A DNA stretch of 64,000 nucleotides from a virus. The DNA lies in the IMG/VR virus record IMGVR_UViG_3300017763_003471, positions 62,001-126,000 of that record. One strand, given 5' to 3'. The translations under genes and the position numbers were made by a program. Below the pieces are notes generated by a model. The model did no database searches. It saw only the letters and a list, made by a program, of their open reading frames with translations, and was not told the origin of the DNA. Below, piece after piece: positions 8,640 through 24,055 of the stretch; the stretch's first letter is position 1; each line of letters begins with the position of its first letter.

Positions 8640-9206
8640 TTATTTGTTCAAAATAGTGCTAAAAGGCTTGCTATTTTTCTCTCTTTTTATGTCTTTTACA
8701 GAACCCATGTTTATTAGTACTGTATCTCTGAAATGTTTGCGTTTATTTGCATATGAATGGTGACTAGATGTAGATGGAACAAATGACATTGCTCTATTTT
8801 CTTTCCATTCTACGTTTCCAACAATTCTTGCTTTTGGATCACTACTTTCGTGGAATACTGTACCTTGATTGAACTTACCAACATATAATACTGTTGATAA
8901 TCGTTTCCAAGGAGAATCATTATGATTCTTATATTCAGCATGTGGATACTGTCTATTTGCCCATATGATATAATCATTAGGTGTCATTTCTTTTGCTGAT
9001 GCATTTGGTACTTGTTCAAGTAAAGTATTACGTATCTTTTCTAACTCATTACCAAAATGTTTTCTTATTTCATCTGTTTCTGGTAGCCCAGATAAACCAC
9101 CTGGGTAAGTTTCCATGTTTGTCTTAATTCTATCGTATAACTCTTGAGGTAAAAAGTTATCTATAATTGCATGGGGGAACGGGTTCTCATAATACTTTAT
9201 ATACAT
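8640..9206 (-). CDS. 2OG-Fe(II) dioxygenase, prolyl-4-hydroxylase-like
   Basis: 188 residues. The double-stranded beta-helix signature is visible: HND at about residue 92-94 in YKNHNDSPWKRLSTVLYVG gives the first two iron ligands, HHSY near 150 the third, and an Arg nearby (HFRDTV) should bind 2-oxoglutarate. The N-terminus FPHAIIDNFLP is typical of phage oxygenases of this group. It hydroxylates an unknown substrate. The start overlaps the IscU stop (TAATG at 9206), so the two are translated together. Confidence 0.82.
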   Translation of the reverse strand: MYIKYYENPFPHAIIDNFLPQELYDRIKTNMETYPGGLSGLPETDEIRKHFGNELEKIRNTLLEQVPNASAKEMTPNDYIIWANRQYPHAEYKNHNDSPWKRLSTVLYVGKFNQGTVFHESSDPKARIVGNVEWKENRAMSFVPSTSSHHSYANKRKHFRDTVLINMGSVKDIKREKNSKPFSTILNK

Positions 9207-9586
9207 TATCTGTGGTACTTTCTTTTAAAATCTTCTATTGCGGATTTAATCGCATCTTCGGCTAAAACACTGCAATGTATTTTTACTGGAGGTAAAGATA
9301 ACTCATCTACTATGTCCATGTTTTTAATTTCTTGAGCCTCTTTCAATGTCTTACCCTTAACCATTTCAGTTACTAAACTTGAACTTGCTATTGCACTTCC
9401 GCAACCATAAGTTTTAAATTTAGCATCTTTTATAACTCCGTCTTCAACTTGTATCTGTAAACGCATTACGTCACCACATGCCGGCGCTCCTACCATCCCA
9501 GTTCCAACTTTATCTACACTGGGATCGAAACGACCTACATTACGTGGATTGTTATAATGGTCCATTACTTTTTTACTGTATGCCAT
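9206..9586 (-). CDS. iscU: IscU Fe-S cluster scaffold
   Basis: 126 residues, full length, colinear with bacterial IscU. All three cluster cysteines are present (C37 in PACGDV, C62 in TYGCGS, C105 in KIHCS), with D39 and the HscA-binding motif LPPVK at 98-102. It should assemble 2Fe-2S clusters using sulfur from a host IscS, since no cysteine desulfurase is seen. The other Fe-S genes lie 13 kb away at 22.7-24.6 kb. A TATAAATA late motif is 27 bp upstream. Confidence 0.96.
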   Translation of the reverse strand: MAYSKKVMDHYNNPRNVGRFDPSVDKVGTGMVGAPACGDVMRLQIQVEDGVIKDAKFKTYGCGSAIASSSLVTEMVKGKTLKEAQEIKNMDIVDELSLPPVKIHCSVLAEDAIKSAIEDFKRKYHR

Positions 9587-9612
9587 ATCTTTTATGTGTA
9601 GTGATAATATAG

Positions 9613-9620
9613 TATTTATA
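9613..9620 (-). promoter_or_regulatory. T4-like late promoter motif
   Basis: TATAAATA on the minus strand, 27 bp before the iscU start at 9586, immediately after the transporter gene and its hairpin. Confidence 0.6.
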
Positions 9621-9625
9621 TGGAA

Positions 9626-9651
9626 ATGCTCCCCTATTTCTAGGAGAGCAT
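9626..9651 (-). terminator. Terminator hairpin after the symporter gene
   Basis: Nine-bp stem ATGCTCTCC / GGGGAGCAT (one G-U) on the minus strand, right after the stop at 9659. The following T run is short, so termination may be partial. Confidence 0.6.
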
Positions 9652-9658
9652 CATTTCT

Positions 9659-11146
9659 TTATTTGATTGTTGGTCTAATATATGTTAGTGCAATAAAGAT
9701 TACACCAGATACAATTAAACCAGGAACGATTGGTTCAACAAAGTTATACACACCAATATCATATGTGATACCAGTGAACAACTTTGATTCTTTGAAGTGT
9801 ACGAATAGTACCCAACCGATACTTGTTACTGCACCACCAATAAAACTTGCAAGTGCATGACGACCATTAGATAGTCCTCTTGCCATTCCAATGACTAGTG
9901 GTAACATACTTGCACCAATGATACCAAAGTATAATGCAGTAGCACGTGCAATAATTGCCATTTGCCCATTGAATTGAATTGTCATCCAAAGTGCTAGTAA
10001 AATAACTGCAACCATCGAACCATATGCTACTTTAAGACTTGGTGTCTTTGTAGATATAATATCATTGGCTATTGTTGTTGATAACAAATGCATCAAACTA
10101 TTAAGAGTTGTAAACGCCGCCGCCAAAATAGTTAAGAATAAAGCACTAGAAACCCATGCTGGGAACCCTGTCTTAATCCAATAAGGAACAATACTAGCAG
10201 TTCCTCCAGCCGCTTGTGCAACTGTCATACCTTCTGTAGCAAACGTATATGAGTTGGCAGAGATTGCCGCTAACATAAACGTTATGATTGCTAGACCTGG
10301 GATAATAACACCCCAATTTGCAATAGTTTTAAAACTCTTTTCATCTTTAGCCATCATCCAACGTGTTTGTAGTTGAGGTAAAGTGATAAGTCCTACTGGA
10401 ATAGTGAATACTAGTAATGTAGTAATCATTAACCAGCCTCTAGACCAAAACTCTGGCCAGCTAGTAAATCCTGTAAAACTAAGTTTACGCAATCCATCAT
10501 CTTCTGGTACTAGTAACCATGCATCTGATAAGTTATCCCAAAAACCGGGAGCCTGCATATGCACGAATACTGTGATTGCTAATACGACAAGTGACCCTGC
10601 AATGACAATGACACCTTGTACCATATCATTTTTAAGTACAGAACTCATTCCACCGTATGCGATAGTTCCAAAAACTAGAATACTAAAACCAACTACTGCT
10701 AAAGTAAAGTCAATTCCTGTAAATGCAGTAATAAATTTACCGACACCTATAAGAACTGCAACACAATAGAATGGGATCAATCCCACAGTAATGAGTGCTA
10801 GTAATTTTGAAATCATTGGTGTGTTATAATGTTTACCAATCATTTCAATATACGTTTTGGCTTTAATTTTCTTGTTAGCTTTGTATACCTTTGGACCTAT
10901 ATAAACAGTCGCAAGATATATAAGACCCACAAATGGAATAATCATTGTGAGTGGAATAGAAAATCCAATCCAACCAGCTAGACCTCCAAAGCCTATGATA
11001 GCAGACGTTGAAATTAACGTTGCTCCATAAGAAAGCCCAAGGTTCATATTGCTATCTGATGTTGTCAGAAAGTAATTATCCCCTTTAGACTTGTAGGCTA
11101 CAAATCCTACGGCTACAATGAATAGTAGCATTAATGTTATGTTCAT
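9659..11146 (-). CDS. Sodium:solute symporter (SSS family)
   Basis: 495 residues with about 12-13 hydrophobic segments over the whole length, normal for the PutP/SglT family of inner-membrane sodium-coupled transporters. The region GATLISTSAIIGFGGLAGW matches the conserved first core helix, and AAAFTTLNSLMHLLSTTIANDI the later helix that helps form the sodium site. Substrate cannot be read from sequence; the family carries proline, sugars, carboxylates, urea and osmolytes. Start at 11146 follows AAGGAGGAC. A whole transporter is rare in a phage and suggests a metabolic role during infection. Confidence 0.92.
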   Translation of the reverse strand: MNITLMLLFIVAVGFVAYKSKGDNYFLTTSDSNMNLGLSYGATLISTSAIIGFGGLAGWIGFSIPLTMIIPFVGLIYLATVYIGPKVYKANKKIKAKTYIEMIGKHYNTPMISKLLALITVGLIPFYCVAVLIGVGKFITAFTGIDFTLAVVGFSILVFGTIAYGGMSSVLKNDMVQGVIVIAGSLVVLAITVFVHMQAPGFWDNLSDAWLLVPEDDGLRKLSFTGFTSWPEFWSRGWLMITTLLVFTIPVGLITLPQLQTRWMMAKDEKSFKTIANWGVIIPGLAIITFMLAAISANSYTFATEGMTVAQAAGGTASIVPYWIKTGFPAWVSSALFLTILAAAFTTLNSLMHLLSTTIANDIISTKTPSLKVAYGSMVAVILLALWMTIQFNGQMAIIARATALYFGIIGASMLPLVIGMARGLSNGRHALASFIGGAVTSIGWVLFVHFKESKLFTGITYDIGVYNFVEPIVPGLIVSGVIFIALTYIRPTIK

Positions 11147-11719: not shown

Positions 11720-11748
11720 ATAATATCAGTATATAAATATATTGTCAA
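11720..11748 (-). promoter_or_regulatory. Sigma70-type promoter of the tRNA cluster
   Basis: -35 TTGACA (11743-11748), 17-bp spacer, -10 TATTAT (11720-11725), reading into tRNA-Gly. The plus-strand late motif at 11732-11739 lies inside this spacer, so the divergent promoters overlap. Confidence 0.65.
11732..11739 (+). promoter_or_regulatory. T4-like late promoter motif for the plus-strand cassette
   Basis: TATAAATA, 12 bp before the ATG at 11751. Transcription would start close to the start codon, giving a nearly leaderless message. Confidence 0.5.
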
Positions 11749-11750
11749 GC

Positions 11751-12290
11751 ATGATTATTACTAAGGAACTACATATAGTAACACCCGAACTTGAAAACTT
11801 TCTAAAAACATGTGAAGCAAAAGGCTTCAACAATAATAGCACATTGGAAGATATGAAGTTTGATTGGTGTTTAGAACAAGGTGGTATGTGGCATGCAACC
11901 TACGTTGATGAACGTATGGTTAGTGTCAGCGGAATACATCCATGGGCTAATGGGTGGAGAGCATTGTTTAGAGGTGTACAGACTGAAAGTAAAAAGATAG
12001 GGTTGAATAGACATCACATGCAAAGTTATTGCTTTCATAGTCAGCTACCATATCAAATAGATTATGCATCAAGTAAAGAAACAGATTTAGATAACCTATT
12101 CATTTATATCACTACAAATACTGAACATGATGCAAGTGGAAAGATGAATAGAATTGATAAAACATTTTATCATTTAGAAAAGATAGACCTAGTTAAGAAC
12201 TTAGGTGTAAGTGAAATTTTTAGTGTTAATCAAAACACATGGATATTAAACGTAGAAAAATATAATGAAATTAGAAGACAGTATAACTAA
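11751..12290 (+). CDS. GNAT-acetyltransferase-like protein
   Basis: 179 residues from the ATG at 11751 (a TTG at 11742 would add three residues). The middle, WHATYVDERMVSVSGIHPW, and the spacing of strands resemble the GNAT fold core, but the acetyl-CoA P-loop is not obvious, so the family call is tentative. First gene of the plus-strand cassette; its 3' end overlaps the adenylate-forming gene by 26 bp. No ribosome site is visible, consistent with a leaderless message from the late motif. Confidence 0.6.
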   Translation: MIITKELHIVTPELENFLKTCEAKGFNNNSTLEDMKFDWCLEQGGMWHATYVDERMVSVSGIHPWANGWRALFRGVQTESKKIGLNRHHMQSYCFHSQLPYQIDYASSKETDLDNLFIYITTNTEHDASGKMNRIDKTFYHLEKIDLVKNLGVSEIFSVNQNTWILNVEKYNEIRRQYN

Positions 12291-12975
12291 AAACGAATTT
12301 GATGATATGATTATGGAGGGCTGTATACTACAAAGTAGTGGTTCAACAGGTACTCCTAAGAATATCTTTCAGCCACCAGAAAAGTTAAGATATGCGAATG
12401 CTATTGCTAGAGAAGTGCAAGGCATAGATAAGGACAGTAAGATATTAACCGTATGTACATTAAAACATGCAGGTGGATTACTGGCACAAACATTACCAGG
12501 TTATGAAGTCAATGCAGAAATTGAAGTAGAAAAGTTTAATGCATTTTCTTGGGTAAGAAAGATAAAAGATTTTACGCACAGTCACTTAACACCTGATATG
12601 GCAAGAGCGATAATGAAGACAAAGAGTTTCGATAGTCTAAACTTAGAAGATAAAATCATTATGTGTGGCAGTGACAGAGTACAAAGTGGCATTATACAAA
12701 ACTTTATTGATAGAGGTGCAATCTTTATTGTTAATTGGGGTATGACAGAAGTTGGTCCAGTTGCAATCAATAGAACATTTGTGCCTGGTATAAAAGTACA
12801 GACAACAGAAACAATAATGGGTAGTGAAACTCATTGTGATACAAAGATTGTCGATGGTGAACTATATGTAAAAGGTGACATATGTGTTTATGACGATTGG
12901 TTTGCTACAGGCGACATAGTTGCAAAAGAAGATGGTCACTATTATTATATGGGAAGAAAGAGTGTTAGACGGTAG
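12265..12975 (+). CDS. Minimal adenylate-forming (AMP-binding) enzyme
   Basis: 236 residues, about half the usual size of the ANL superfamily. It has the P-loop SSGSTGTPK at 24-32, the GMTEVGP motif (aromatic/TE, adenine pocket) near residue 160, and ATGD near 215 (ribose Asp), ending at the hinge GRKSVRR. The N-terminal ~150 residues and the mobile C-terminal domain of normal enzymes are missing. It probably activates a carboxylate as acyl-AMP; a partner must do the second half-reaction. Overlaps both neighbours, so expression is coupled. Confidence 0.85.
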   Translation: MKLEDSITKNEFDDMIMEGCILQSSGSTGTPKNIFQPPEKLRYANAIAREVQGIDKDSKILTVCTLKHAGGLLAQTLPGYEVNAEIEVEKFNAFSWVRKIKDFTHSHLTPDMARAIMKTKSFDSLNLEDKIIMCGSDRVQSGIIQNFIDRGAIFIVNWGMTEVGPVAINRTFVPGIKVQTTETIMGSETHCDTKIVDGELYVKGDICVYDDWFATGDIVAKEDGHYYYMGRKSVRR

Positions 12976-13717
12976 TAGATTAATATTCATATCATTTGAA
13001 CAAGGAAACAAAGGACACAGAGTAGGTCGTGTAATATCTTGTCTACCTGATATACATTGGTATAGTCATAAAGATAATGGAATTAATCCTTGGAACATTC
13101 ATTTCAAACATACAGATATCAGACAAAGATATGCAAGTAAATATCACTATGATAGATTAGTACCAAAAGGTGCTTTACCTCCACTACATGATTACGTAAA
13201 AGATTTTATACCTGATGAAGAATATTATTACAATAGATTCTTCTATCCACGTTTTGAAAAGATGGGTGGTCGAGAATTAATGAAGAAGAATAGATTAGTT
13301 TTCTGTACACATGAACACCCGATTAAATTAAATAAAAGATTTCCTAAAGCAAAGATAATAAATCTAATAGGTGATGATTATACTATCGCCTCAAGATATA
13401 CAGAAACTACTGCACTATTCCCAGGTCATGTTAAAATGAAATGGGTAGGAGGAGAGAATACTGTATACGGTAAAAAACTGCAAACTATATCAAAAGAGTT
13501 AGGTTCTGATTTTACTGTAAGAGATATATGGGCGTGGGATAAATATAAAACAAAGTACATGGACAAATACGATGATGAATATTGGGAACATGTATACTCT
13601 CCTATTGCAGAAAGAAGTTGGGATAGAGAATCTTATAGCCATGATAACGTATTAACTATTTCGCCAAATAGATATAGTAAATGGCGAAGAATAAAGAGAT
13701 TTTTAGATGGTAGATGA
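12962..13717 (+). CDS. Sulfotransferase-like P-loop protein 1
   Basis: 251 residues from a GTG at 12962, which leaves a 14-bp overlap; an upstream ATG at 12920 would lie inside the previous gene. Strand-loop start LIFISFEQGNKGHRVGRVIS corresponds to the PAPS 5'-phosphosulfate loop, and THEHPIKLNKRFPKAKIINLIGDD to the 3'-phosphate-binding strand and helix. The glycine-rich loop is less canonical than in the two paralogues. Acceptor unknown. Confidence 0.6.
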   Translation: MLDGSRLIFISFEQGNKGHRVGRVISCLPDIHWYSHKDNGINPWNIHFKHTDIRQRYASKYHYDRLVPKGALPPLHDYVKDFIPDEEYYYNRFFYPRFEKMGGRELMKKNRLVFCTHEHPIKLNKRFPKAKIINLIGDDYTIASRYTETTALFPGHVKMKWVGGENTVYGKKLQTISKELGSDFTVRDIWAWDKYKTKYMDKYDDEYWEHVYSPIAERSWDRESYSHDNVLTISPNRYSKWRRIKRFLDGR

Positions 13718-14420
13718 AAGTAAATTGATATTTTTCACAGGTGCTCCTGGAAGTAAATGGAGTGCAGTCAGTAATGTATTGTCTATGACAAAAAAGATTA
13801 ACATCAATACTACTGATAGAAATGCAGATAGAGAATATACTCACCCAACTAAGTTTAATAAGGCACAACACTTAGGAAGTTATTTCGGTACAGGTATGGA
13901 ACTAGGTGAAGGCTGGCATGAGATTAATAAGTTTACAAAACAAGAAATCTTAAATGAAATAGACAAAGCCTGGAAAGAAGAAAAGCCAACTGAATATAGA
14001 ATTGTAAAATCACATATGATATCTAACAATTTAGATTTCATTGCAGAGACTTTTCCTAAAAGTAAAATAATGATTGTATTCAGACCAATTGAAAGTTGTT
14101 ACAGAGGTTGGTTCGGAGCAGGGGGCTTCGATATAACTTATCCAAAGTATCATAATCATTACAAAGATGAAGAAACTGCACGTGAATATATTAAAGAAGA
14201 AACTAAAGATGCTAGACAATGGATATTTAACAGAAACTTAACAGTACATACTGCAACAAGTAAACATTGGAAAGACTATTGGGATATAACTGATAGTGAG
14301 AATAGATTTATAAAAAGTATAGAAGGTTATTTCTTCGAAAAGAATGATCCTAGTAGGGACGTTACGTTAGACACTCATATTGCTTATTATAACTTTGATA
14401 GGATAGATGAAAGATTATAA
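13707..14420 (+). CDS. Sulfotransferase-like P-loop protein 2
   Basis: 237 residues. LIFFTGAPGSKWSAVSNVL gives the 5'-phosphosulfate loop near the N-terminus, and VKSHMISNNLDFIAETFPKSKIMIVFRP (residues ~95-125) the conserved strand with the Lys/His that in sulfotransferases contact substrate and the FRP segment before the 3'-phosphate site. Overlaps its upstream neighbour by 11 bp and its downstream one as TAATG. Paralogue of 15493-16194. Confidence 0.72.
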   Translation: MVDESKLIFFTGAPGSKWSAVSNVLSMTKKININTTDRNADREYTHPTKFNKAQHLGSYFGTGMELGEGWHEINKFTKQEILNEIDKAWKEEKPTEYRIVKSHMISNNLDFIAETFPKSKIMIVFRPIESCYRGWFGAGGFDITYPKYHNHYKDEETAREYIKEETKDARQWIFNRNLTVHTATSKHWKDYWDITDSENRFIKSIEGYFFEKNDPSRDVTLDTHIAYYNFDRIDERL

Positions 14421-15511
14421 TGACAAAACTAAAATATGCAATCGTTGTACTTAAAAATGGAAATGAACACCACGATAAGATTGCTCTAAATTACACACAA
14501 TTAAGTTTAGATTATCAAGAATGTAATAGATTACCAACAGAAAATCAAGTTGATTATTATGTAATGGACAGTTACACTTACTTACATGACTATGATATTG
14601 TTATGGTTGTTAATGCTGGAACTATATTCTTGTGGGGTGCATATGAACATCATTATAAAGAAATGATAGAAGCATCAAAGCATGAGTATATACATTTTAG
14701 TGATGATGTTTGGTTTCATAAACCATTGGGCGAAGGTACAACCCATGTAAAAGCAAAGTTTATTCACAAGTTAAACACAGATAGTGCAGAAGAATTTTAT
14801 AATAGCCATGATATCATTTTAACAAGTTTAATTGATGATAGTAATATTACATATCTAATGCACAATGAAATACCAAATTACGGAAATGTAACTAAGCCAG
14901 TTGATTGGGCAATAACAGTAAGTAGTGGATTTTTCATTAACTGTATATTAGACCATCATGGGTTTAATGAGAAGTCTGTAATACATCATGTCGATATCTC
15001 AAAGATAAGTCTTCATGTTCACAAGTATACTATTGAAAATTGGGATGGAAATGATTTTGAATCATGGATAGAACATCTTAACAATAAATTTCCTAGTATG
15101 TCACTTTGGAATAGAAAGAAATTTACTAGTGAAGATAGAAAATGGAAAGTCGTATGGGAAGATGTACAGAATCATTTTGGAGACAAATGGCAAGAACACT
15201 GGAACAAATACAAAAGTTTAAATCATAAGTGGCATAGAATGAATATAAAAGATATTAGTTCTATTGATACTAATGGACAAGGAATAATATGGTGGGACGG
15301 AGCATTAAAAAGAATACCAAGTAACTTACTAAAGACAAGTAAACAGAGTTATCAAAATGCAATAGACTTCTTATGGAGATTACCAGAAGATACAATATGC
15401 TATGGGAACGACCACTGCAATTTACAATTCGATGGTATAAGTTCTAAACTAGCACTTAAAAAAGTTCTATCACACAATAGTAGAGAAAAATTATGGACGG
15501 ACAAGATTTAA
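14420..15511 (+). CDS. Unknown cassette protein (363 aa), glycosyltransferase-like in part
   Basis: No firm family. The N-terminal ~110 residues (KYAIVVLKNGN, then YDIVMVVNAGTIFLWG) look like a Rossmann-type alpha/beta fold with an Asp/Asn pair where glycosyltransferases place DxD. The C-terminal part is rich in His and Trp. It sits between two sulfotransferase-like genes with overlapping ends, so it should act in the same pathway. Confidence 0.6.
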   Translation: MTKLKYAIVVLKNGNEHHDKIALNYTQLSLDYQECNRLPTENQVDYYVMDSYTYLHDYDIVMVVNAGTIFLWGAYEHHYKEMIEASKHEYIHFSDDVWFHKPLGEGTTHVKAKFIHKLNTDSAEEFYNSHDIILTSLIDDSNITYLMHNEIPNYGNVTKPVDWAITVSSGFFINCILDHHGFNEKSVIHHVDISKISLHVHKYTIENWDGNDFESWIEHLNNKFPSMSLWNRKKFTSEDRKWKVVWEDVQNHFGDKWQEHWNKYKSLNHKWHRMNIKDISSIDTNGQGIIWWDGALKRIPSNLLKTSKQSYQNAIDFLWRLPEDTICYGNDHCNLQFDGISSKLALKKVLSHNSREKLWTDKI

Positions 15512-16194
15512 TATTGGCAACGGGTGCTCCTGGAAGTAGATGGAGTGGCACCTTACGTGCTATTAGTACTAATCCAAATATTAATATTAGTGATGAAAGA
15601 AGCGAACTAGAATACGCCAGAGACTATGTTACACCTAATGGTAAAACAAAACAGTATGGTTGGCATCGAGGTGCTTATTGGGGTCCATATCATAATCAAG
15701 GTCAAAGATTTGATAATCTACAAGATATGACAAAAGATGAAATTATAAAAGAATTCAAAAAGCCATATAAAGATTTTAACTATGGTGTTAAGATAATAAA
15801 AAGTCATTGGTTTGCATATCATCTTCCTTTACTACAAGACTTATTTCCAAAATCAAAGATTATGGCTGTGTATATGCCATCTGATTTTTGTTTTGATTGG
15901 TGGAGAAACAAAGTAGGTGGTTGGGATATATCGTATCCACATTATGATTGGTACGAAAATGATGCACGTATGATTAAACAAATTAATATAGAAAATACAA
16001 ATATAGAAAACTTCTTTGATTTACAACAACTATCAATATATGAAGTGTTTGAAAAACTTGGTCTACCATCTGAATTTAGAAGTGAAGAAGAATTAATTTC
16101 ACAAGATTCTAAATTGAAAGATTTAACTAAGAACAAAGATTATAAAAAAGTTCTGGATAACACAGTACATCGTAGTTTTACTGGTATAAAATAA
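15493..16194 (+). CDS. Sulfotransferase-like P-loop protein 3
   Basis: 233 residues. LILATGAPGSRWSGTLRAI is nearly the same loop as in protein 2, and IIKSHWFAYHLPLLQDLFPKSKIMAVY repeats its second motif, followed by FDWWRNKVGGWDISYPHYDW where protein 2 has YRGWFGAGGFDITYPKY. The two are clearly paralogues. Stop and next start overlap (TAATG). Confidence 0.72.
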   Translation: MDGQDLILATGAPGSRWSGTLRAISTNPNINISDERSELEYARDYVTPNGKTKQYGWHRGAYWGPYHNQGQRFDNLQDMTKDEIIKEFKKPYKDFNYGVKIIKSHWFAYHLPLLQDLFPKSKIMAVYMPSDFCFDWWRNKVGGWDISYPHYDWYENDARMIKQINIENTNIENFFDLQQLSIYEVFEKLGLPSEFRSEEELISQDSKLKDLTKNKDYKKVLDNTVHRSFTGIK

Positions 16195-16781
16195 TGAAAG
16201 ACATACCTAACTCTGGAACATATGTAATGATGTTGAGTGGCGGACTTGATAGTGCGTTGCTCTCTTATCTAGTTCTAAAAGAGTTACCAAATACAAAGCT
16301 GGTCTTAAGTAGTGTATGTCATCAATCTTTAAATTACTATAATCTATTTAATGTAATAGCAATTACGAATTGGTTACATGCAAGATTTCCAAACAGAATT
16401 GAAGAACATTATATTGGATACTATAAAGACAGAAATGAAGCACGAAACAACAGAACCAAAACTAGAGATAGACTTATTAATAAACATCAAGCATCAGGTA
16501 TCTTAACTGGTATGACACTTAATCCCTCTGAATTAATGACAGAAGGACGTGATGAAAGTAGAGACAAAAAGCGAGAAATTAGAGTAATCTCATCACATGG
16601 GGTATATCATTATCGTCCGTTTATAAATAGTACTAAACAAACGGTAGCAGAATTATATAACGAACATAATTTACAAGACCTAGCAAACTTAACTATCAGT
16701 TGTGAAAGTGAAAGTCTGCCTAGACCATGTAAAGAATGTTGGTGGTGTAAAGAGAAGTATTGGGCTTTCGGTTACTATTAA
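16194..16781 (+). CDS. QueC-like PP-loop ATPase
   Basis: 195 residues. SGGLDS at 15-20 is the PP-loop (N-type ATP pyrophosphatase). The C-terminus has four cysteines, C170-x8-C179-x2-C182-x2-C185, the same spacing as the zinc site of 7-cyano-7-deazaguanine synthase QueC. QueC turns a carboxylate into an amide and then a nitrile via an acyl-AMP. No FolE, QueD or QueE is next to it, so it may instead amidate or nitrilate another acid made in this cassette. Family is clear, substrate is not. Confidence 0.85.
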   Translation: MKDIPNSGTYVMMLSGGLDSALLSYLVLKELPNTKLVLSSVCHQSLNYYNLFNVIAITNWLHARFPNRIEEHYIGYYKDRNEARNNRTKTRDRLINKHQASGILTGMTLNPSELMTEGRDESRDKKREIRVISSHGVYHYRPFINSTKQTVAELYNEHNLQDLANLTISCESESLPRPCKECWWCKEKYWAFGYY

Positions 16782-16796
16782 TGTAAAGGACACGAA

Positions 16797-17477
16797 ATGT
16801 CATTAGGACTAGAAGAATATAATAAGTTTCATCCAACTGTATTACAACCTCTTGATATGAAAATTGATGTAAATTTGTTTGAAGAACAAATGCATGAATA
16901 CAGATATGCATTTAGACGTTGGGGTACTAAACACACTGAATATCCAAGATATGGAGCTCCTCTCGTTAATTTAAACGGAGATATGTTCAACAATCCAGAA
17001 CCTATATGTTATCCATTAAATCAATGGAACGAAGGAAAGAAAGAAGAAGATAAAGTACGTGACCCGAAATGTACTTCACCTACTCCAATGTTATCAGAAT
17101 CATGCTTTGATCCTCTTGAACCAATTAAACCTTTTATGTATAGAAGTGCTATATTAAAGTGGCATACTACTGGACATTTTAAACCACATACAGATACTAA
17201 AATACCTAGTGATATTATTAGACTATGGGGAACCAATGATCCAGATAATATGATATTTCAATTTGATAAAGATAGAAAAACAGCCAGTCCAAGAGAAGTG
17301 GCAGAGGGTAATCTATCATATGATTTAGTAAGAGAAAAAGATATAGAAGCAGGTAGATTATATATAACAGATACACATGTAATACATGATGCAAGTTCTA
17401 TCGGTGATAACGTATATCAATTTTTTATTTCATTAAGCACTGATAGTATACCAACGTTGAAAGAGTTACTATTATGA
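16797..17477 (+). CDS. Aspartyl/asparaginyl-hydroxylase-like oxygenase
   Basis: 226 residues. HTDTK at about residue 126 supplies the HxD iron ligands and THVIHDAS near 200 the distal His, in the order of 2OG-Fe(II) oxygenases of the Asp/Asn hydroxylase type; ILKWHTTGHFKPHTD matches the strand before the ligands. Separated by 15 bp from the QueC-like gene, AAGGA precedes its ATG. Substrate unknown, possibly a small molecule or peptide made by the cassette. Confidence 0.7.
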   Translation: MSLGLEEYNKFHPTVLQPLDMKIDVNLFEEQMHEYRYAFRRWGTKHTEYPRYGAPLVNLNGDMFNNPEPICYPLNQWNEGKKEEDKVRDPKCTSPTPMLSESCFDPLEPIKPFMYRSAILKWHTTGHFKPHTDTKIPSDIIRLWGTNDPDNMIFQFDKDRKTASPREVAEGNLSYDLVREKDIEAGRLYITDTHVIHDASSIGDNVYQFFISLSTDSIPTLKELLL

Positions 17478-17893
17478 ACTACACCAAATTAGACTTACCA
17501 AAGGTACCAGATAATTTAATATTACCAATGTATGAAGTATTAAAACTTGAAAATATATTTGGTGGTAAAAGTAAGAATTATACAATACATGAATGTCAAT
17601 CTGAGTTAAGAGAATATCTACAACCCTTATTCCCCGATTGTACTAAGTTTAGATATCAAACATTAACAGAAGATATACCAGTGCATATCGATAGAGGCAG
17701 AGATTTTGCAATAAACTATATCATATCTCCAGGAGGAGATAATGTTGAGACATGCTGGTTTGAAGAAAAAACTTCACAAAATCCAATAGATACTGTCATT
17801 TTACCTAAAGAAGAATGGTATAAACTGTCAGTAAACACACATCATACAGTAAGAAATATTACAGATTGGCGTTTTGCTATCACTGTAGCATAA
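17474..17893 (+). CDS. Small 2OG-Fe(II)/cupin-like oxygenase
   Basis: 139 residues. HIDRGRDFAINYII gives an HxD pair near residue 73, and VNTHHTVRNITDWR the distal His and the Arg expected for 2-oxoglutarate. Short double-stranded beta-helix proteins of this kind occur in marine phages. Start overlaps the previous stop as ATGA. Last gene of the cassette. Confidence 0.65.
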   Translation: MNYTKLDLPKVPDNLILPMYEVLKLENIFGGKSKNYTIHECQSELREYLQPLFPDCTKFRYQTLTEDIPVHIDRGRDFAINYIISPGGDNVETCWFEEKTSQNPIDTVILPKEEWYKLSVNTHHTVRNITDWRFAITVA

Positions 17894-17927: not shown

Positions 17928-18197
17928 ATGCCACATATACTAAGATTTAAAAATGAAGGTACTAACGAGAACGGTAACCAATGCTCAGATGAAGCACAGG
18001 TAATTTATGACCGTTATGTAGATGAAGGTAAAATACTAGAAAGAGATATTTTATCAAGTCTAGGCGGAGAGTACACTAAAATCTCTTTTGCAACAGAGGC
18101 AGACTGTGTTGCGTTTAGACAAGAAATGTCTGATATTAATGAAAGAGATACTAGTGGTGCTAATCGTTCAGGTGTTACCACATACGATGAAGATTAA
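17928..18197 (+). CDS. Unknown protein (89 aa)
   Basis: Acidic, no membrane segment, with a predicted alpha/beta core (KISFATEADCVAFRQEM). Good ribosome site and its own late motif suggest abundant late expression. No family recognised. Confidence 0.75.
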   Translation: MPHILRFKNEGTNENGNQCSDEAQVIYDRYVDEGKILERDILSSLGGEYTKISFATEADCVAFRQEMSDINERDTSGANRSGVTTYDED

Positions 18198-18680: not shown

Positions 18681-19097
18681 TTAGCCTCTATTACCTCTTA
18701 GTGCAAAGAATAACCCACCTACCCATAGAAATACGTGAAAGTTATCATATAGAATTACGTCTAGTAGACTTTCAGGTTCGCCTACCCAGATAACACCTGT
18801 CATTATACAACAGATTGTAATACCTGAGAAACGTGTAATTAGGTCTCCTATCCAACGTATATAATCTGTGTTGAATGCTCCGCCTACGAGTAGACCTAGA
18901 CCTGCGCCTAGTTCCCCATAAGCAACAACCCACCAAACAATGTAGGGCAAGTCAAAAGACTCAGCCCCTTCCAATGTTACTGGAAACTTACTTAGACCTT
19001 GTTGAATAAACACAATGGCTAAGGGAATTCTGTATAGCCAATGAGACAAACAGAACTCCGGTAGTTTTTCACTTATGCGTTTAAGATAGTTCATCAA
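18681..19097 (-). CDS. DoxX-like membrane protein
   Basis: 138 residues, four predicted membrane helices. YRIPLAIVFIQQGLSKF and the following GELGAGLGLLVGG match the DoxX/SURF4-type pattern seen in proteins linked to quinol or thiosulfate oxidation. Its start lies inside the 3' end of the pseudoazurin gene, so the two are translated together. Role with the copper protein is inferred. Confidence 0.72.
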   Translation of the reverse strand: MMNYLKRISEKLPEFCLSHWLYRIPLAIVFIQQGLSKFPVTLEGAESFDLPYIVWWVVAYGELGAGLGLLVGGAFNTDYIRWIGDLITRFSGITICCIMTGVIWVGEPESLLDVILYDNFHVFLWVGGLFFALRGNRG

Positions 19098-19545
19098 GCA
19101 ATTCTTTTAGTTTCTTTTTGCTCTTGCCTCTGACCTTTGCTTTGCTGATATCATTTAGTGGGACTTCGCCACCTTCTGCTACCATTACAATAGCAATCAT
19201 ACCCATTGTTGCATGTGGTGTACACTGATATAGATATACGCCTGGTACGTCAAAAGTGATTGCAACTTCTTTGTTGTTTTTTGATTTCTTTGGAATATCC
19301 CAACCATCTGGTCCAGCAATGAATTGTACATTATGACCTTTTGATGTTGGTACCCAAGTAATTGTATCGCCTACGTCAATGTTTGCGATATCCTCACTGT
19401 AAACCATCTTAGCACCATCGTCACGTTTGTTCAACATTTCGATAGTCATATCATCTGCGAATGCAGGCACTACAAACAATGCTATAAACATAGCAAAATA
19501 TAATGCAGGATATATTAATCCGGTGGTAAGTGTATTAAGTTTCAT
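19081..19545 (-). CDS. Pseudoazurin-like blue copper protein
   Basis: 154 residues. A signal peptide ends near residue 30 (VVPAFA|DD), so it is periplasmic. The type 1 copper ligands are all present: H71 (GHNVQ), C108, H111 and M116 (CTPHATMGM), with pseudoazurin spacing. Pseudoazurins carry electrons from cytochromes to nitrite reductase or terminal oxidases. A basic tail (KSKKKLKELLDE) extends beyond the family. Clear family assignment. Confidence 0.93.
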   Translation of the reverse strand: MKLNTLTTGLIYPALYFAMFIALFVVPAFADDMTIEMLNKRDDGAKMVYSEDIANIDVGDTITWVPTSKGHNVQFIAGPDGWDIPKKSKNNKEVAITFDVPGVYLYQCTPHATMGMIAIVMVAEGGEVPLNDISKAKVRGKSKKKLKELLDELS

Positions 19546-19579
19546 TTAGTTTTTCCTTATATTAAGTTAAGTCTAAAGA

Positions 19580-19663
19580 TGGTGCCCATGGAGGGACTTG
19601 AACCCCCACTCCGTAAGAACAGGTACCTAAAACCTGCGTGTCTACCAATTTCACCACATGGGC
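19580..19663 (-). tRNA. tRNA-Leu(TAG)
   Basis: Type II tRNA with a long variable arm; acceptor GCCCATG/CATGGGC, anticodon loop TTTAGGT between CAGGT and ACCTG, discriminator A and encoded CCA. Confidence 0.95.
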
Positions 19664-19672
19664 TAAATTTTG

Positions 19673-19891
19673 TTATTCAGATTTAGTTGTGAAATATTTT
19701 TCAATCATTTCTAATCTGTCATAAGCGGCCGCTAGTTTATTAAGTTCTTCAATCACTGCCTCGGTAACATCTGAATGTTCACCAATACCTGCTGGCATAG
19801 TTTGATAGACTTGTATGTTTGCTAGATGAACCGCTATTTCACCTTCCGCTTGTTTACGTGCGGCTAGGATTATTGCTTCGCCTGGCTTCAT
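19673..19891 (-). CDS. Small helical protein (72 aa)
   Basis: Alpha-helical, alanine-rich, mildly acidic, without membrane segment (EAIILAARKQAEGEIAVHL; VIEELNKLAAAYDRLEMIEKY). AAAGGTAA lies upstream of the ATG at 19891. Sits between tRNA-Thr and tRNA-Leu. No family recognised. Confidence 0.72.
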   Translation of the reverse strand: MKPGEAIILAARKQAEGEIAVHLANIQVYQTMPAGIGEHSDVTEAVIEELNKLAAAYDRLEMIEKYFTTKSE

Positions 19892-19909
19892 TATTTACCT
19901 TTCTTGTTG

Positions 19910-19984
19910 TGGTGCTGATGAAAGGAATCGAACCTCCAACCTACTGATTACAAATCAGTTGCTCTACCGTTGAGCCACATCAGC
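19910..19984 (-). tRNA. tRNA-Thr(TGT)
   Basis: Acceptor GCTGATG/CATCAGC, anticodon loop TTTGTAA between ACTGA and TCAGT, discriminator A and encoded CCA. Confidence 0.96.
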
Positions 19985-20003
19985 ACATTATTAACTACGT
20001 GTA

Positions 20004-20011
20004 TATTTATC
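20004..20011 (-). promoter_or_regulatory. T4-like late promoter motif
   Basis: GATAAATA on the minus strand, 20 bp before tRNA-Thr and directly after a hairpin. It would transcribe tRNA-Thr through the pseudoazurin and DoxX genes. Confidence 0.5.
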
Positions 20012-20012
20012 T

Positions 20013-20036
20013 TAAGGGGCTAACCGTGACCCCTTA
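20013..20036 (-). terminator. Hairpin, possible terminator
   Basis: TAAGGGG/CCCCTTA, 7-bp stem with a 10-nt loop between the 89-aa gene (ends 20095) and tRNA-Thr. No clear T run follows. Confidence 0.45.
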
Positions 20037-20094
20037 CGTGTTTATTTCGTAACAACCCGCTCTTGTCTTATATGTTCATTACTGAACGTAGATT

Positions 20095-20364
20095 TCAAGA
20101 AACACTTTTTGGCATTAACTTTCTTCGCATTTCATCCATTTCTGCATTTCGATGTTGTTGCGTAGATTGTTTTTCTATTTCTTTTAAAGTAGGTGATTTG
20201 AATTTCTCTTGTACTGCTTCGATTCTATTTTTGATATCTGCTACTCTTTGTTCCATTGGATCAGGTGCAATTTTAGGTATACTATATGATTTTTCATGCA
20301 TCCAAACTGCACTAATAACCATAGCAACTAAAACTCCACAAAAGAATAGTATGACGTATAACAT
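20095..20364 (-). CDS. Membrane-anchored coiled-coil protein (89 aa)
   Basis: Residues 1-22 are a hydrophobic anchor (LYVILFFCGVLVAMVISAVW). The rest is a charged helix with heptad character (QRVADIKNRIEAVQEKF; MDEMRRKLM). The layout is spanin-like or scaffold-like, but the more convincing spanin pair is at 42.5-43.4 kb. Confidence 0.7.
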   Translation of the reverse strand: MLYVILFFCGVLVAMVISAVWMHEKSYSIPKIAPDPMEQRVADIKNRIEAVQEKFKSPTLKEIEKQSTQQHRNAEMDEMRRKLMPKSVS

Positions 20365-20372
20365 ACATATAT

Positions 20373-20528
20373 TTATTCTTCTATTTTAATTTTCCGATAA
20401 GATAGTTCGGAATAGACTTCCAGCCACTTCATTAAATCTTCGTGTGAAGGTGAACCTTTATGTCGTATTCTGTAAAATTCTTTTAGTAATTCTTTTACTG
20501 AAAGTTCTTTTAAGTTTAGTTGATACAT
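20373..20528 (-). CDS. Small unknown protein (51 aa)
   Basis: Start set at 20528 (MYQLNLKELSVKELL): upstream in-frame ATGs at 20558 and beyond fall at or before the transcription start of the promoter at 20567-20595, and GAGG/CAGG stands upstream of this ATG. Helical and charged. Confidence 0.6.
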   Translation of the reverse strand: MYQLNLKELSVKELLKEFYRIRHKGSPSHEDLMKWLEVYSELSYRKIKIEE

Positions 20529-20566
20529 ACCTGAACGCCTCGTAAAATGTTTTCTCATTGTTAATA

Positions 20567-20595
20567 ATAATAACACAGATTCGTTGCAGTGTCAA
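20567..20595 (-). promoter_or_regulatory. Sigma70-type promoter
   Basis: -35 TTGACA (20590-20595), 17-bp spacer, -10 TATTAT (20567-20572). The spacer keeps GAATCTGTG, a degenerate form of the shared palindrome. Confidence 0.65.
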
Positions 20596-20597
20596 TG

Positions 20598-21299
20598 CTA
20601 AAAATCAGTATGTTCATCTACTGAGTGGTCAATATTTGTCGCATCATCTGTATCGACAGGCATTTCTGGTAAGTCTGAATAAGGAACTACTGGCTGGGCC
20701 ATTGCAACTGATTCATCAGTTTCAAAATCTAATGCACTTACATTTGGAGGAGGGTTTTGTTTTTGTTCTTCATCAGGATCTTCTTCTGGAGGGAGACCTA
20801 ATCTAGGATTAATACCTTTTAAACTTCCACCACCTATTCTAAAATCATATGTAGCAAACTCACCACCTTTTGTCATACCTCTACCTTTCATTTCAGCTTC
20901 ATTTAAAATTTCAGATACTGGTGCCATTTGTTGCTTGATGCCTTCTTCTGTTTTATTTTTAGCATCTTGCATTTGTTTTTTATTATTTTTGGTATTTGGT
21001 ATAGTTACTGCACGTGGTTTGTCACTTCCTGGTTCAACTATCCATACATATATACTTTTACTGTCAGGTGATTCTAAGTGAGAAAGATAAACTGAGTCTG
21101 GCTTTATATTTGCATTGATAGGATAACCTAGTATTCTATCTACCGACATGTAGCTAATAACTACAGTTGCCAGTGTTAAAGGTATAACCAGTCCTAGTAG
21201 TAATGCGTTTCTGTGATTTTTTATTGCAAACCAAAGAATAACACATGCCAAAAAGAACATCGAAATGAATAATGGTGCTAACTCTACTGAATATAACAT
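20598..21299 (-). CDS. Membrane protein of the ExbB/ExbD-like operon (233 aa)
   Basis: Two N-terminal helices (~7-26 and ~31-54) are followed by a long periplasmic or cytoplasmic tail that is proline-, acid- and glutamine-rich with low complexity after residue ~170. Lies 24 bp after the ExbD-like gene. The tail could span the envelope to reach a target, as TonB does, but there is no TonB sequence motif. Function unknown. Confidence 0.7.
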   Translation of the reverse strand: MLYSVELAPLFISMFFLACVILWFAIKNHRNALLLGLVIPLTLATVVISYMSVDRILGYPINANIKPDSVYLSHLESPDSKSIYVWIVEPGSDKPRAVTIPNTKNNKKQMQDAKNKTEEGIKQQMAPVSEILNEAEMKGRGMTKGGEFATYDFRIGGGSLKGINPRLGLPPEEDPDEEQKQNPPPNVSALDFETDESVAMAQPVVPYSDLPEMPVDTDDATNIDHSVDEHTDF

Positions 21300-21323
21300 T
21301 TAACGTCTCCATGTATGAGCGGA

Positions 21324-21959
21324 TTAAAGTCCGCCGCTACTTGCCTTTCTCGTTATGATATTATTATCTAACGTATTGTATTTAACAAATTTCCCATCTT
21401 TGTCTAGCCAAAAGTTAACTAATGGTATTTGTTGACCTTTAAATTCGTAGTTTTTCTCACCAATGTATACTTCTCTATAAGGATTTATTTTAATAACTTT
21501 TACTTTAATTATCAAATCTTTCTTTTCAATATTCTTTTTTACTTCCCAAGGTCTCATTGCATATACGTGAGCGGCTACTTGATATCTTCCTTTTATAATA
21601 CCACGTAATGTGATTACTTCTCTATTGATATAAATTACTTTTCTATTACCGTATTCATCTACAGTCGTATCATTTGAATGTCCCAAATCATCTTTTTCAA
21701 GATTCATAAAACCATTTTCTTTCTTTATAAAAGAAACTGTATTGCCTGCAGGATCTTTAACCCATAAGTCAATATCATCCGTTACTACTGTAGGCCATTC
21801 AATTACAATCATGTACTCTGCTTTTTTAGGTACATCTGCTTTTTTAGTTATTGGATTGATTAATATAAAAGCGATTATGAATAAAAATACGAAACCTACT
21901 AATAGATTGAATAGTAAGTCTGTAAATCCTACTGTGCTTTTGTATTTGTTTTTGTTCAT
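21324..21959 (-). CDS. ExbD/MotB-like protein with DUF2135-like domain
   Basis: 211 residues. A single N-terminal helix (residues ~12-34, GFTDLLFNLLVGFVFLFIIAF) carries an Asp at 14, where ExbD/TolR/MotB proteins hold the proton-path Asp. The periplasmic part has DIDLWVKDPAGNTVSF and a later KGRYQVAAHVYA, resembling the YfaP/DUF2135 beta-sandwich. Start overlaps the stop of the ExbB-like gene (TGATG-type junction at 21959). Likely the stator partner of that protein. Confidence 0.75.
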   Translation of the reverse strand: MNKNKYKSTVGFTDLLFNLLVGFVFLFIIAFILINPITKKADVPKKAEYMIVIEWPTVVTDDIDLWVKDPAGNTVSFIKKENGFMNLEKDDLGHSNDTTVDEYGNRKVIYINREVITLRGIIKGRYQVAAHVYAMRPWEVKKNIEKKDLIIKVKVIKINPYREVYIGEKNYEFKGQQIPLVNFWLDKDGKFVKYNTLDNNIITRKASSGGL

Positions 21960-22411
21960 CAGTCACGACTCTCAAGGTTGACTAACTGTATCTTAGTAAA
22001 CTGACTGAATATAAGACCCGTAAGTGTCGTATACAATGCAGTACTCATACCCATAGCCATATCTGTTAGAGTTTCTTTTAGACTTGCAGTATCATCTACA
22101 TCTAATCCTTCAAAACTTGAACCTAACATCAGAATAAATCCTGCTACGGTACCTATCATACCTAACGCCAACATACTTTCTGATATGAACCAACCGACAC
22201 CTAATCCGGAATCGATGTTTTCACCTTCTTTATAATCCATCGTTAACTTACCGATATACAAACTTGTAAATATATACAAGCCTATGATACCAAAGCTAAT
22301 CTTAGTTACGTCCTTTTCATATAATTCATAAAACAATCCGAAATAATGAGATATTCCCATGATTGTTAGTGATATACAAAAGAACAACCACCACCTTAGA
22401 GTTTTCGACAT
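21959..22411 (-). CDS. MotA/TolQ/ExbB-like proton channel protein
   Basis: 150 residues with four hydrophobic segments. LGMIGTVAGFILML (residues ~82-95) and MAMGMSTALYTTLTGL (~115-130) are the two conserved helices of the MotA/TolQ/ExbB family, which form an ion channel driven by the proton motive force. It is shorter than E. coli ExbB, with a small cytoplasmic loop. Partner is the downstream gene. Confidence 0.85.
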   Translation of the reverse strand: MSKTLRWWLFFCISLTIMGISHYFGLFYELYEKDVTKISFGIIGLYIFTSLYIGKLTMDYKEGENIDSGLGVGWFISESMLALGMIGTVAGFILMLGSSFEGLDVDDTASLKETLTDMAMGMSTALYTTLTGLIFSQFTKIQLVNLESRD

Positions 22412-22420
22412 AATATCATC

Positions 22421-22660
22421 CTATTGATTTTTTAGCATATCCTCTACACACTTGACTGCATCACCAATAGTATTGATAGTTTCTGCGTATTCATCTGGAA
22501 TAGCAATTTTATAGAATTCTTCTACTTCAAATACAATTTCAACTGTATCGATACTATCAGCACCCAAATCTTTCTTTAGATTGGTATCATCATTCAAGTC
22601 AGAGACCTGCCGTTTCATTTTTCGTGCAGTTATTTCATACACTTTATCTTTTACTTCCAT
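22421..22660 (-). CDS. acpP: Acyl carrier protein
   Basis: 79 residues, normal ACP length. The motif GADSIDTVEIV holds Ser36, the 4'-phosphopantetheine attachment site; helices II and III are conserved and acidic. It needs a host phosphopantetheinyl transferase. Placement next to Fe-S genes recalls the ACP link to the Isc machinery in mitochondria, but bacterial fatty-acid or cassette chemistry is equally possible. Confidence 0.95.
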   Translation of the reverse strand: MEVKDKVYEITARKMKRQVSDLNDDTNLKKDLGADSIDTVEIVFEVEEFYKIAIPDEYAETINTIGDAVKCVEDMLKNQ

Positions 22661-22686
22661 TATTTTTTCTTTCGTCCTCTGGTTGA

Positions 22687-23010
22687 TTATACTGAGAAGC
22701 TAGAACCACATCCACATGTAGTTTGTGCTCCTGGGTTATCGATTACAAATCTGTCGCCTTGTAGGCTAGAGATATAATCTACTTTTGCATCTGCTAGATA
22801 CATGATTGACATACTATCTACTACTAACTTCACGCCATTAGTTTCATAGATACTATCATCATCTTTAAGGTCTTTTTCAAAACCAAAACCGTAACTGAAC
22901 CCATGGCAACCTCCTCCTTCTACGAACACTCTTAATGCCGTACCAGAAGATTCACCCTGTTCTTTTATAATTTCTTCTACTCTCGTAGCCGCTTTTTCTG
23001 TAAAAATCAT
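22687..23010 (-). CDS. A-type Fe-S carrier, ErpA-like
   Basis: 107 residues from the ATG at 23010, which overlaps the previous stop as ATGA (a GTG at 23019 would add three). The three cluster cysteines are C35 (GGGCHGFSYGF), C99 and C101 (CGCGSSFSV). It accepts clusters from IscU and passes them to target enzymes. Closest in sequence pattern to ErpA/IscA of proteobacteria. Confidence 0.95.
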   Translation of the reverse strand: MIFTEKAATRVEEIIKEQGESSGTALRVFVEGGGCHGFSYGFGFEKDLKDDDSIYETNGVKLVVDSMSIMYLADAKVDYISSLQGDRFVIDNPGAQTTCGCGSSFSV

Positions 23011-23729
23011 ACTCGCCACACCTTTATGTCTCTGGCTAATTTAGAATATGTTGAATATTTTAAATCAGTATCAGTAGACTGGATTGAATAGTTAACAGGC
23101 CCTCCTGTTAGATATTCGTTATTATCTTTACTTTGATACCATTGAAGGCTTTCATCTGGGTAACCAATTCCCAAACTATATGTCAAGTTGTTATCTTCTT
23201 TCTTAATGCCGAGAACTTCACCCCATACATCTTGACTGTGTTTTGGTTCTTCAATGTAACCAAAATTCTTACCATAACCAGTAACATAACCCATCATACT
23301 TGCACTAAAGGCTACTATGCCACTTGCTATACCAATCGATGTAAATGCATTGTCCCATCTACTTGAAGCATTTGGATCTCTTACACTTCCATCTTTTTCG
23401 TTATTACGAATTTCTTCTTCATTCATCTTTCTATTGAAAACAAACAAACAGTTTGCTCCCATTTGTGGGTTTCTTCCGACCCAATCTTTCATACCAGGCA
23501 ACATTGTAAATCCCCATGAATGTTCCTTGTAGAGATAATCTAATTTTGTTCTATCAGTAACTACATATAAATCAAAAAAACTTTCATCTTGTTTTGATGG
23601 TGCCGTAGTTGCTAGATAAATCCAATGATTTATGTGTTCTTCATCTACTTCTTTAGAAAGGTCCCAGTTCCTTTGGCATCTACGTGCTTGATTTATTGCG
23701 TGTTTTTCTATGTTTAATCTCTCATTCAT
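23007..23729 (-). CDS. Nitroreductase-like flavoprotein
   Basis: 240 residues from the ATG at 23729 (ATGA overlap with the IscA-like gene; the upstream in-frame Met lies inside it). An N-terminal RRCQRNWDLSKEV segment resembles the R-SxR..F start of nitroreductases, and SIGIASGIVAFSASMMGYVTGYGK matches the FMN-binding helix and following turn. These enzymes reduce diverse substrates with FMN and NAD(P)H. Cotranslation with two Fe-S carriers suggests a redox role in cluster delivery, which is inference. Confidence 0.7.
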   Translation of the reverse strand: MNERLNIEKHAINQARRCQRNWDLSKEVDEEHINHWIYLATTAPSKQDESFFDLYVVTDRTKLDYLYKEHSWGFTMLPGMKDWVGRNPQMGANCLFVFNRKMNEEEIRNNEKDGSVRDPNASSRWDNAFTSIGIASGIVAFSASMMGYVTGYGKNFGYIEEPKHSQDVWGEVLGIKKEDNNLTYSLGIGYPDESLQWYQSKDNNEYLTGGPVNYSIQSTDTDLKYSTYSKLARDIKVWRV

Positions 23730-24055
23730 ACCGTAAAACTCTCTCCACATCCACAACGTGCTTTTTCATTTGGATTACTTACAAGTTCAAAATGCGAACT
23801 CATACTCTTAGTATCAGTAACATAATCCAATGTTGCTCCGTCAATAGTGTGAAAATATTTATGTTCTACGAGAATGTCAAAGTCATCGTATTTAATAGCA
23901 AAGTCATCTTCTATATTGAATTTTTCGTCAAGTAGAACTTCATACATGAAACCAGTACACCCGGCTGTTTTTATACTTAATCTTGCTTTTTTACCTGGGT
24001 TCTGAGATAACCATTTTTTAATTCTTGTTGTGGAATTATCTGTTAAATACAACAT
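23726..24055 (-). CDS. A-type Fe-S carrier, IscA-like
   Basis: 109 residues with C33 (TAGCTGFMYEV), C101 and C103 (CGCGESFTV), the A-type triad. More divergent than the ErpA-like protein. GAGGAGGGG precedes its ATG, which lies 20 bp inside the HscB gene. Confidence 0.93.
   Translation of the reverse strand: MLYLTDNSTTRIKKWLSQNPGKKARLSIKTAGCTGFMYEVLLDEKFNIEDDFAIKYDDFDILVEHKYFHTIDGATLDYVTDTKSMSSHFELVSNPNEKARCGCGESFTV

Follow-up and report, generated by a model that had tools for sequence, protein, structure and literature searches.

A recurrent, reshuffled multi-enzyme operon of uncultured T4-like marine phages with adenylation-core, GNAT-fold, sulfotransferase-like, QueC-like and oxygenase-like genes

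Background

The metabolism of marine phages has mostly been read as single genes that boost host pathways. In the pelagimyophages and cyanomyophages, which are T4-like marine phages, auxiliary genes lie in a hypervariable island or host-recognition cluster. In pelagimyophages the content of these clusters includes tail fibres, glycosyltransferases and radical-SAM cassettes, and an aspartyl/asparaginyl beta-hydroxylase was noted as core to the group (PMC7029224). The text of that paper names no sulfotransferases, and the passages of it consulted include no operon of AMP-binding, GNAT and QueC-like genes. Here we describe an operon of this kind, a cassette of nine genes (g1 to g9) in a 64,000 nt stretch of DNA, the window, which comprises positions 62001-126000 of the 138,591 bp IMG/VR virus record IMGVR_UViG_3300017763_003471. 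Coordinates are those of the window.

Parts of the cassette resemble other described systems. The ornithine-lipid enzymes include the GNAT-like OlsB and the Asp-hydroxylase-like OlsC and OlsD. The analogy is at the level of function only: N-acyl transfer to an amino acid is followed by hydroxylation of the Asp-hydroxylase type. The ornithine-lipid pathway lacks the acyl-AMP ligase core, the sulfotransferase-like genes and the QueC-like gene that the cassette has. The QueC-like gene shares its PP-loop and zinc site with QueC, Cap9 and QatC (PMC13329287, PMC13279940). Sulfotransferase genes are also reported from marine phages, where their function was called unclear (PMC10580990). The literature searched is consistent with the statement of an earlier note on this DNA, made from the letters alone, that no named pathway has this gene set.

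Results and discussion

Gene layout and a late-promoter-like element

The cassette consists of nine plus-strand open frames spanning 11751-17893. The earlier note had described a plus-strand cassette in which nearly every stop overlaps the next start, and this was borne out at seven of the eight junctions. The overlaps range from 1 to 26 nt (g1/g2, 26; g2/g3, 14; g3/g4, 11; g4/g5, 1; g5/g6, 19; g6/g7, 1; g8/g9, 4), and only g7/g8 is gapped, by 15 nt. The start of g1 was refined: the ATG at 11751 is preferred over the TTG at 11742 because relatives begin at that ATG. The third gene begins with a GTG at 12962.

An exact match to the T4-type late-promoter-like element TATAAATA lies at 11732-11739 on the plus strand, 12 nt before the ATG of g1. 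The T4-type late promoter core, ATAAATA, is found within 70 bp upstream in 15 of 49 related viral operons, versus 3.05 +/- 1.7 in shuffled sequence. A scan for sigma-70 promoters gave no excess (40 found, 40.2 expected). We infer that the ATAAATA element upstream of the cassette operons is a late promoter, and the cassette is probably expressed late.

Two linked modules

An IMG/VR scan with g2 returned 28 loci, and a scan with the g2 alignment returned 98, of which 80 were kept. Once identical g2 proteins were removed, 62 distinct viral loci were left. Most often found in the same operon as g2 were g1 (49 loci), g3 (37) and a DUF6356 membrane protein (28), followed by g8-like genes (15), g7 (12), g4/g6 (11), g9 (10) and g5 (9). 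The g8 profile is broad, and its count may pool several oxygenase subfamilies. Adjacency was scored as the same strand and within three genes of g2, and was compared with random placement in the same loci. By this measure g1 lies near g2 in 50 of 53 loci (12.0 expected), g3 in 39 of 45 (9.8 expected) and DUF6356 in 27 of 30 (7.1 expected). Both g5 and g9 are also found beside g2 above random placement.

Because these loci had been picked by g2, a second scan was centred on g5. The order g4-family gene, g5, g7 is present in 15 of its 16 contigs, mostly with short overlaps, and g6 stands between g5 and g7 only in the window lineage. Most of these contigs also hold g1, g2 and g3. The QueC-like g7 is tied to the cassette via g5 rather than g2. 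In two relatives, L100 and L112, g3 and g1 are fused as one 417-residue protein. Co-occurrence, order and fusions therefore describe two linked modules, g1-(DUF6356)-g2-g3 and g4-g5-(g6)-g7, which are repeatedly inherited together, and oxygenases (g8 and g9) that come and go. The earlier proposal that the genes act together is strongly supported: homologues are not scattered, and order and linkage are kept in many contigs.

Every cassette gene has a ratio of nonsynonymous to synonymous divergence (dN/dS) of 0.03-0.16 when the window is compared with two relatives, L003 and L004, and all nine are under strong purifying selection. Synonymous divergence is 1.75 in g3 and 0.86 in g9, far above the 0.07-0.68 of g4-g8, so blocks within the cassette have been exchanged. 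Between L003 and L004, g3 and g9 are nearly identical and g1 and g2 are not. Shuffled modules, with g3 and g9 swapped as blocks, are what might be seen if independent cargo genes had merely gathered in a hypervariable island. The strong adjacency and strand bias, the conserved 4-5-7 order and the gene fusions make such a chance gathering very improbable.

The same cassette is found in a contig of 342,607 bp, in which g1, g2 and g5 are 100% identical and a Gp23 capsid gene is present. The gp23 gene occurs in 7 of 10 cassette records, and the search of the 138.6 kb record itself gave none. By these markers the carriers are uncultured T4-like marine phages, and we class the cassette with their auxiliary-gene islands. 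Among 50,697 deposited phages (INPHARED, tblastn) there was no match to g1, g2, g5, g7 or g8, nor to a g3 relative, and g4 gave distant matches only. A g2 relative had no tblastn match among plasmids.

A GNAT-fold protein and a minimal adenylation core

Searches of the window proteins against PHROGs, Pfam and NCBIfam gave few matches, and several assignments below come from family profiles or structure models. The marker family of the cassette is g1 (11751-12290, plus strand), whose AlphaFold2 model has a mean predicted local distance difference test (pLDDT) score of 93.3. Foldseek returned 52 PDB matches at E<=0.001, and those listed are GNAT enzymes, among them the N-acyl amino acid synthase FeeM (template modeling (TM) score about 0.5-0.6, probability 1.00). 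A profile comparison also matched the PDB GNAT 3t9y (E 0.0034). The predicted structure thus confirms a GNAT fold, as the earlier note had proposed, and g1 is acyltransferase-like. At the position of the coenzyme A (CoA) pyrophosphate loop, R/QxxGxG/A, it reads KKIGLNRHHM, which we judged by eye to be non-canonical.

The half-size AMP-binding enzyme of the earlier note is g2 (12265-12975, plus strand), a minimal adenylate-forming (ANL) enzyme. It matches PF00501 at 1.1e-13, covering profile positions 167-378 of 384. The protein spans the P-loop motif to the hinge, without the N-terminal part and without the C-terminal domain. The P-loop (A3), NWGMTE (A5 Glu), T-x-D (A7 Asp) and the hinge Arg are kept in 21 of 21 aligned members, and the best PDB matches are feruloyl-CoA and fatty-acyl-CoA synthetases (2.4e-11). 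The same minimal enzyme is present in bacterial contigs at 47-58% identity. Pelagibacteraceae is the label of 22 of the 32 matches and the rest are mostly gammaproteobacterial (these SAR11 and gammaproteobacterial contigs are L043-L072). It is rare in Pelagibacteraceae, being present in 2 of 197 genomes, that of the query included. Because the core motifs are kept in phages and bacterial chromosomes hold the same minimal enzyme, the truncation is not phage decay. The short MenE-type acyl-CoA ligase (NF005877, 362 aa) shares the adenylation core, and because its model reaches the P-loop near residue 45, the N-terminal shortening of g2 resembles it. The missing C-terminal domain sets g2 apart from short MenE, and the similarity is far under the curated cut-offs.

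In a subset of SAR11 chromosomes a short-chain dehydrogenase (SDR) gene is followed by DUF6356 and then by the minimal AMP-binding protein. In L095 (6176-7201) a 342-residue protein, AMP-binding-like by eye, stands ahead of g1, DUF6356 and g2, and the N-terminal part that g2 lacks might come from this protein.

Three sulfotransferase-like proteins

The three proteins that the earlier note called sulfotransferase-like are g3 (12962-13717), g4 (13707-14420) and g6 (15493-16194), all on the plus strand. Family matches support the label, although they are remote and the window copy of g3 has none. In the g3 family, Sulfotransfer_3 (best 6.4e-5) and Sulfotransfer_4 (best 2.5e-4) are each matched by 3 of 36 members, and H117 is invariant. 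The window g4 matches Sulfotransfer_3 at 9.7e-4, under the curated cut-off, and 10 of 32 members of its family match it, at best at 2.5e-5. The g4 and g6 profiles retrieve the same 81 proteins and the two co-align, as paralogues do. The g4 family has a TGAPGS(K/R)WS loop and KSH with an invariant H103, and the histidine of the KSH/KCH-type motif is invariant across g4 and g6. The phosphosulfate loop is altered, being PGS(K/R)WS and not (K/R)SGTTW. The invariant histidine of g3, g4 and g6 presumably corresponds to the likely catalytic histidine of known sulfotransferases. The evidence supports all three as remote sulfotransferase-like proteins.

The conserved protein g5 and the QueC-like g7

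The fifth gene (14420-15511, plus strand) encodes the one protein that the earlier note had left without assignment. PHROGs, Pfam and NCBIfam searches gave no family, and its AlphaFold2 model (mean pLDDT 76) has no convincing fold match. Methyltransferase and glycosyltransferase folds were considered and rejected, with TM scores below 0.3 on this medium-confidence model.

The product of g7 (16194-16781, plus strand) is a QueC-like PP-loop enzyme, matching PF06508 at 8.2e-6 and, as its best PDB match, Cap9 at 3e-6. The SGGxDS loop for ATP (SGGLDS in the window) is present in the window protein and in 12 of 13 relatives. The zinc site that the earlier note saw as intact, C(x)8CxxCxxC, is exact in the window protein, and its four cysteines, the first spacing variable, are kept in 14 of 14 members. 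As in Cap9, PF(x)4K is kept. Cap9 is a deazaguanylation enzyme, and with these retained motifs g7 could be taken as a QueC-type step towards a modified nucleobase for phage DNA or transfer RNA (tRNA), or towards a protein conjugate. Radical SAM, GNAT and oxygenase enzymes are known in nucleobase modification too. The QueC substrate motifs YxQxHxxE, VPxRN and YPDC (PMC13329287) are absent from all 14 g7 members checked, and g7 is therefore not a preQ0 synthase; the canonical QueC/preQ0 pathway is ruled out on these motifs. The 138.6 kb contig, which is incomplete, yielded no QueD (other preQ0 genes were not searched), and no transglycosylase or other deazaguanine pathway neighbour was identified near the cassette. 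The operon also lacks g7 in 50 of the 62 loci. The nucleotide modification named in the earlier note, taken as a 7-deazaguanine one, is weakened by the motifs and by the lack of QueD, and we consider a nucleobase product improbable.

Two oxygenase-like proteins

The earlier note's two iron oxygenases are g8 (16797-17477) and g9 (17474-17893), both on the plus strand. Each has an invariant HxD...H, and the assignment stands by family for g8 only. The g8 family profile matches a beta-hydroxylase (6.1e-18) and L-proline cis-4-hydroxylase (3e-9) in the PDB. PF05118 is matched by 9 of 15 members (best 1.4e-10), although not by the window copy itself. R116, H131, D133 and H197 are invariant. These data support g8, at the family level, as an oxygenase like those of the Asp/Asn beta-hydroxylase type that depend on Fe(II) and 2-oxoglutarate. 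The small g9 has no family or PDB match; its aligned H71, D73 and H124 support an oxygenase-like label.

Companion genes in related operons

Frequent neighbours in the 62 loci are a methyltransferase-like gene (22 loci), transporter genes that are TctC-like (18) or TctA (17), radical-SAM genes of three groups (17, 16 and 11) and a full AMP-binding protein (15). We assigned the methyltransferase-like and TctC-like labels by eye, and the examples tested had no Pfam match. The TctA gene at 14168-15610 of L104 matches PF01970 at 2.1e-79. In five loci (L083, L086, L087, L091 and L096) a gene like those of flavin-dependent tryptophan halogenases stands between g1 and DUF6356; the L083 copy matches PF04820 at 4.3e-58. 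L139 and L058 carry a run of class IV aminotransferase, extra oxygenase-like, methyltransferase, radical SAM and inosine monophosphate dehydrogenase (IMPDH)/guanosine monophosphate reductase-like genes. One L139 operon joins the aminotransferase, here of the D-amino-acid/branched-chain type, the methyltransferase, the radical SAM and the IMPDH/reductase-like genes with g8, g1, DUF6356 and g2.

A proposed pathway

We propose, with a probability of roughly 0.4, that this modular and probably late-expressed operon builds an amine or amino-acid product that is N-acylated, hydroxylated and possibly sulfated. Each chemical step is read from family membership. The g2 enzyme, which lacks the domain usually responsible for forming the CoA ester, would turn a carboxylic acid into an acyl-adenylate, and g1 would pass the acyl group to an amine. 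Hydroxylation would fall to g8 and g9, and g3, g4 and g6 would transfer a sulfuryl or similar group. A carboxylate could be adenylated by g7 to give an amide-type bond. The resulting derivative of an amine or amino acid would be either a small molecule or an aminolipid of the membrane, and in relatives having DUF6356 part of the chemistry may take place at the membrane. The small-molecule reading is favoured because the companions in related operons are aminotransferase, methyltransferase, radical SAM, IMPDH-like, halogenase and TctA transporter genes. The likeness of g8 to beta-hydroxylases and a free-proline hydroxylase also counts for it.

Several results weigh against this pathway. A classical CoA loop is not apparent in g1. 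With the C-terminal domain g2 also lacks its A10 lysine, and its activity is a prediction. Neither g7 (2 loci, 3.6 expected) nor g8 (5 loci, 5.3 expected) is enriched near g2, and g5 is unexplained. Because the companion genes vary, the products may differ between phages. It is doubtful where the sulfotransferase-like enzymes would obtain 3'-phosphoadenosine 5'-phosphosulfate (PAPS). A search that left out the CysDN type detected no ATP sulfurylase in ten viral or SAR11 records, and phages and g2-bearing SAR11 genomes have no convincing adenosine 5'-phosphosulfate (APS) kinase, their matches being short and weak. A true APS kinase is present in two gammaproteobacteria. The APS-kinase matches in the relatives L152 and L153 were rejected as a source of PAPS because the short P-loop kinase adjoins dihydrofolate reductase-like and thymidylate-synthase-like genes.

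The main rival is that acylation, hydroxylation and sulfation modify a surface, either the O-antigen or envelope of the host, shutting out other phages, or the tail fibres of the phage itself. The cassette adjoins tail-fibre-like genes in L139 and L058. In L161 (MH319725.1), from a single-cell sample, two g4-family genes lie directly 3' of tail-like genes. Another contig of that sample, virus record L160 (MH319720.1), carries a g4 relative as well as a PsbA-like gene. Surface modification would also suit the late-promoter-like element, the membrane-like DUF6356 and the gene content of the pelagimyophage host-recognition clusters (PMC7029224). Within the cassette we identified neither a glycosyltransferase nor a polysaccharide gene, the tail-fibre-like gene of the window (34352-38806) is more than 16 kb away, and the companion genes for aminotransferase, IMPDH-like, halogenase and transporter proteins better fit a small molecule. 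On this balance a surface role is somewhat unlikely.

The transporter genes raise another explanation, an auxiliary nutrient pathway in which an organic acid, imported and activated by the phage, feeds host catabolism. TctA and TctC-like genes lie near 17-18 of the 62 loci, g2 is acyl-CoA-synthetase-like, and within 9206-11146, upstream of the cassette in the window, the opposite strand encodes a 495-residue transporter-like protein. The transporter genes are often in other operons or on other strands, and the sulfotransferase-like, GNAT and hydroxylase genes belong to decoration and not to catabolism. A nutrient role thus has only a small chance of being right.

A bolder version of the proposed pathway is unlikely in our estimate. 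It holds that the phages own a natural-product-type pathway in which the acyl-adenylating enzyme without the C-terminal domain, the GNAT protein and DUF6356 make a new class of N-acylated, hydroxylated and sulfated amines or aminolipids late in infection. If it holds, phages would run their own assembly pathways, as a conserved and reshuffled multi-enzyme operon without close relatives among deposited phages would imply. The operon also offers leads on an enzyme family that has no assigned role, the minimal adenylation core with DUF6356 that some SAR11 chromosomes share, and on the sulfotransferase genes of marine phages.

Other genes of the window

A small gene at 17928-18197 on the plus strand lies downstream of the core and is found only in the closest relatives (the window lineage, L003 and L004). 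The 9206-11146 region, on the other strand upstream of the cassette, also encodes a scaffold protein that looks IscU-like by eye, with TATAAATA ahead of it. At 18681-23756 there are, in sequence, DoxX-like, plastocyanin-like copper protein, MotA/ExbB-like and nitroreductase-like genes. A 1216-residue protein encoded at 719-4369 is an apparent fusion of three domains, and its parts match metal-dependent phosphohydrolase, tRNA nucleotidyltransferase and 5'-3' deoxyribonucleotidase families.

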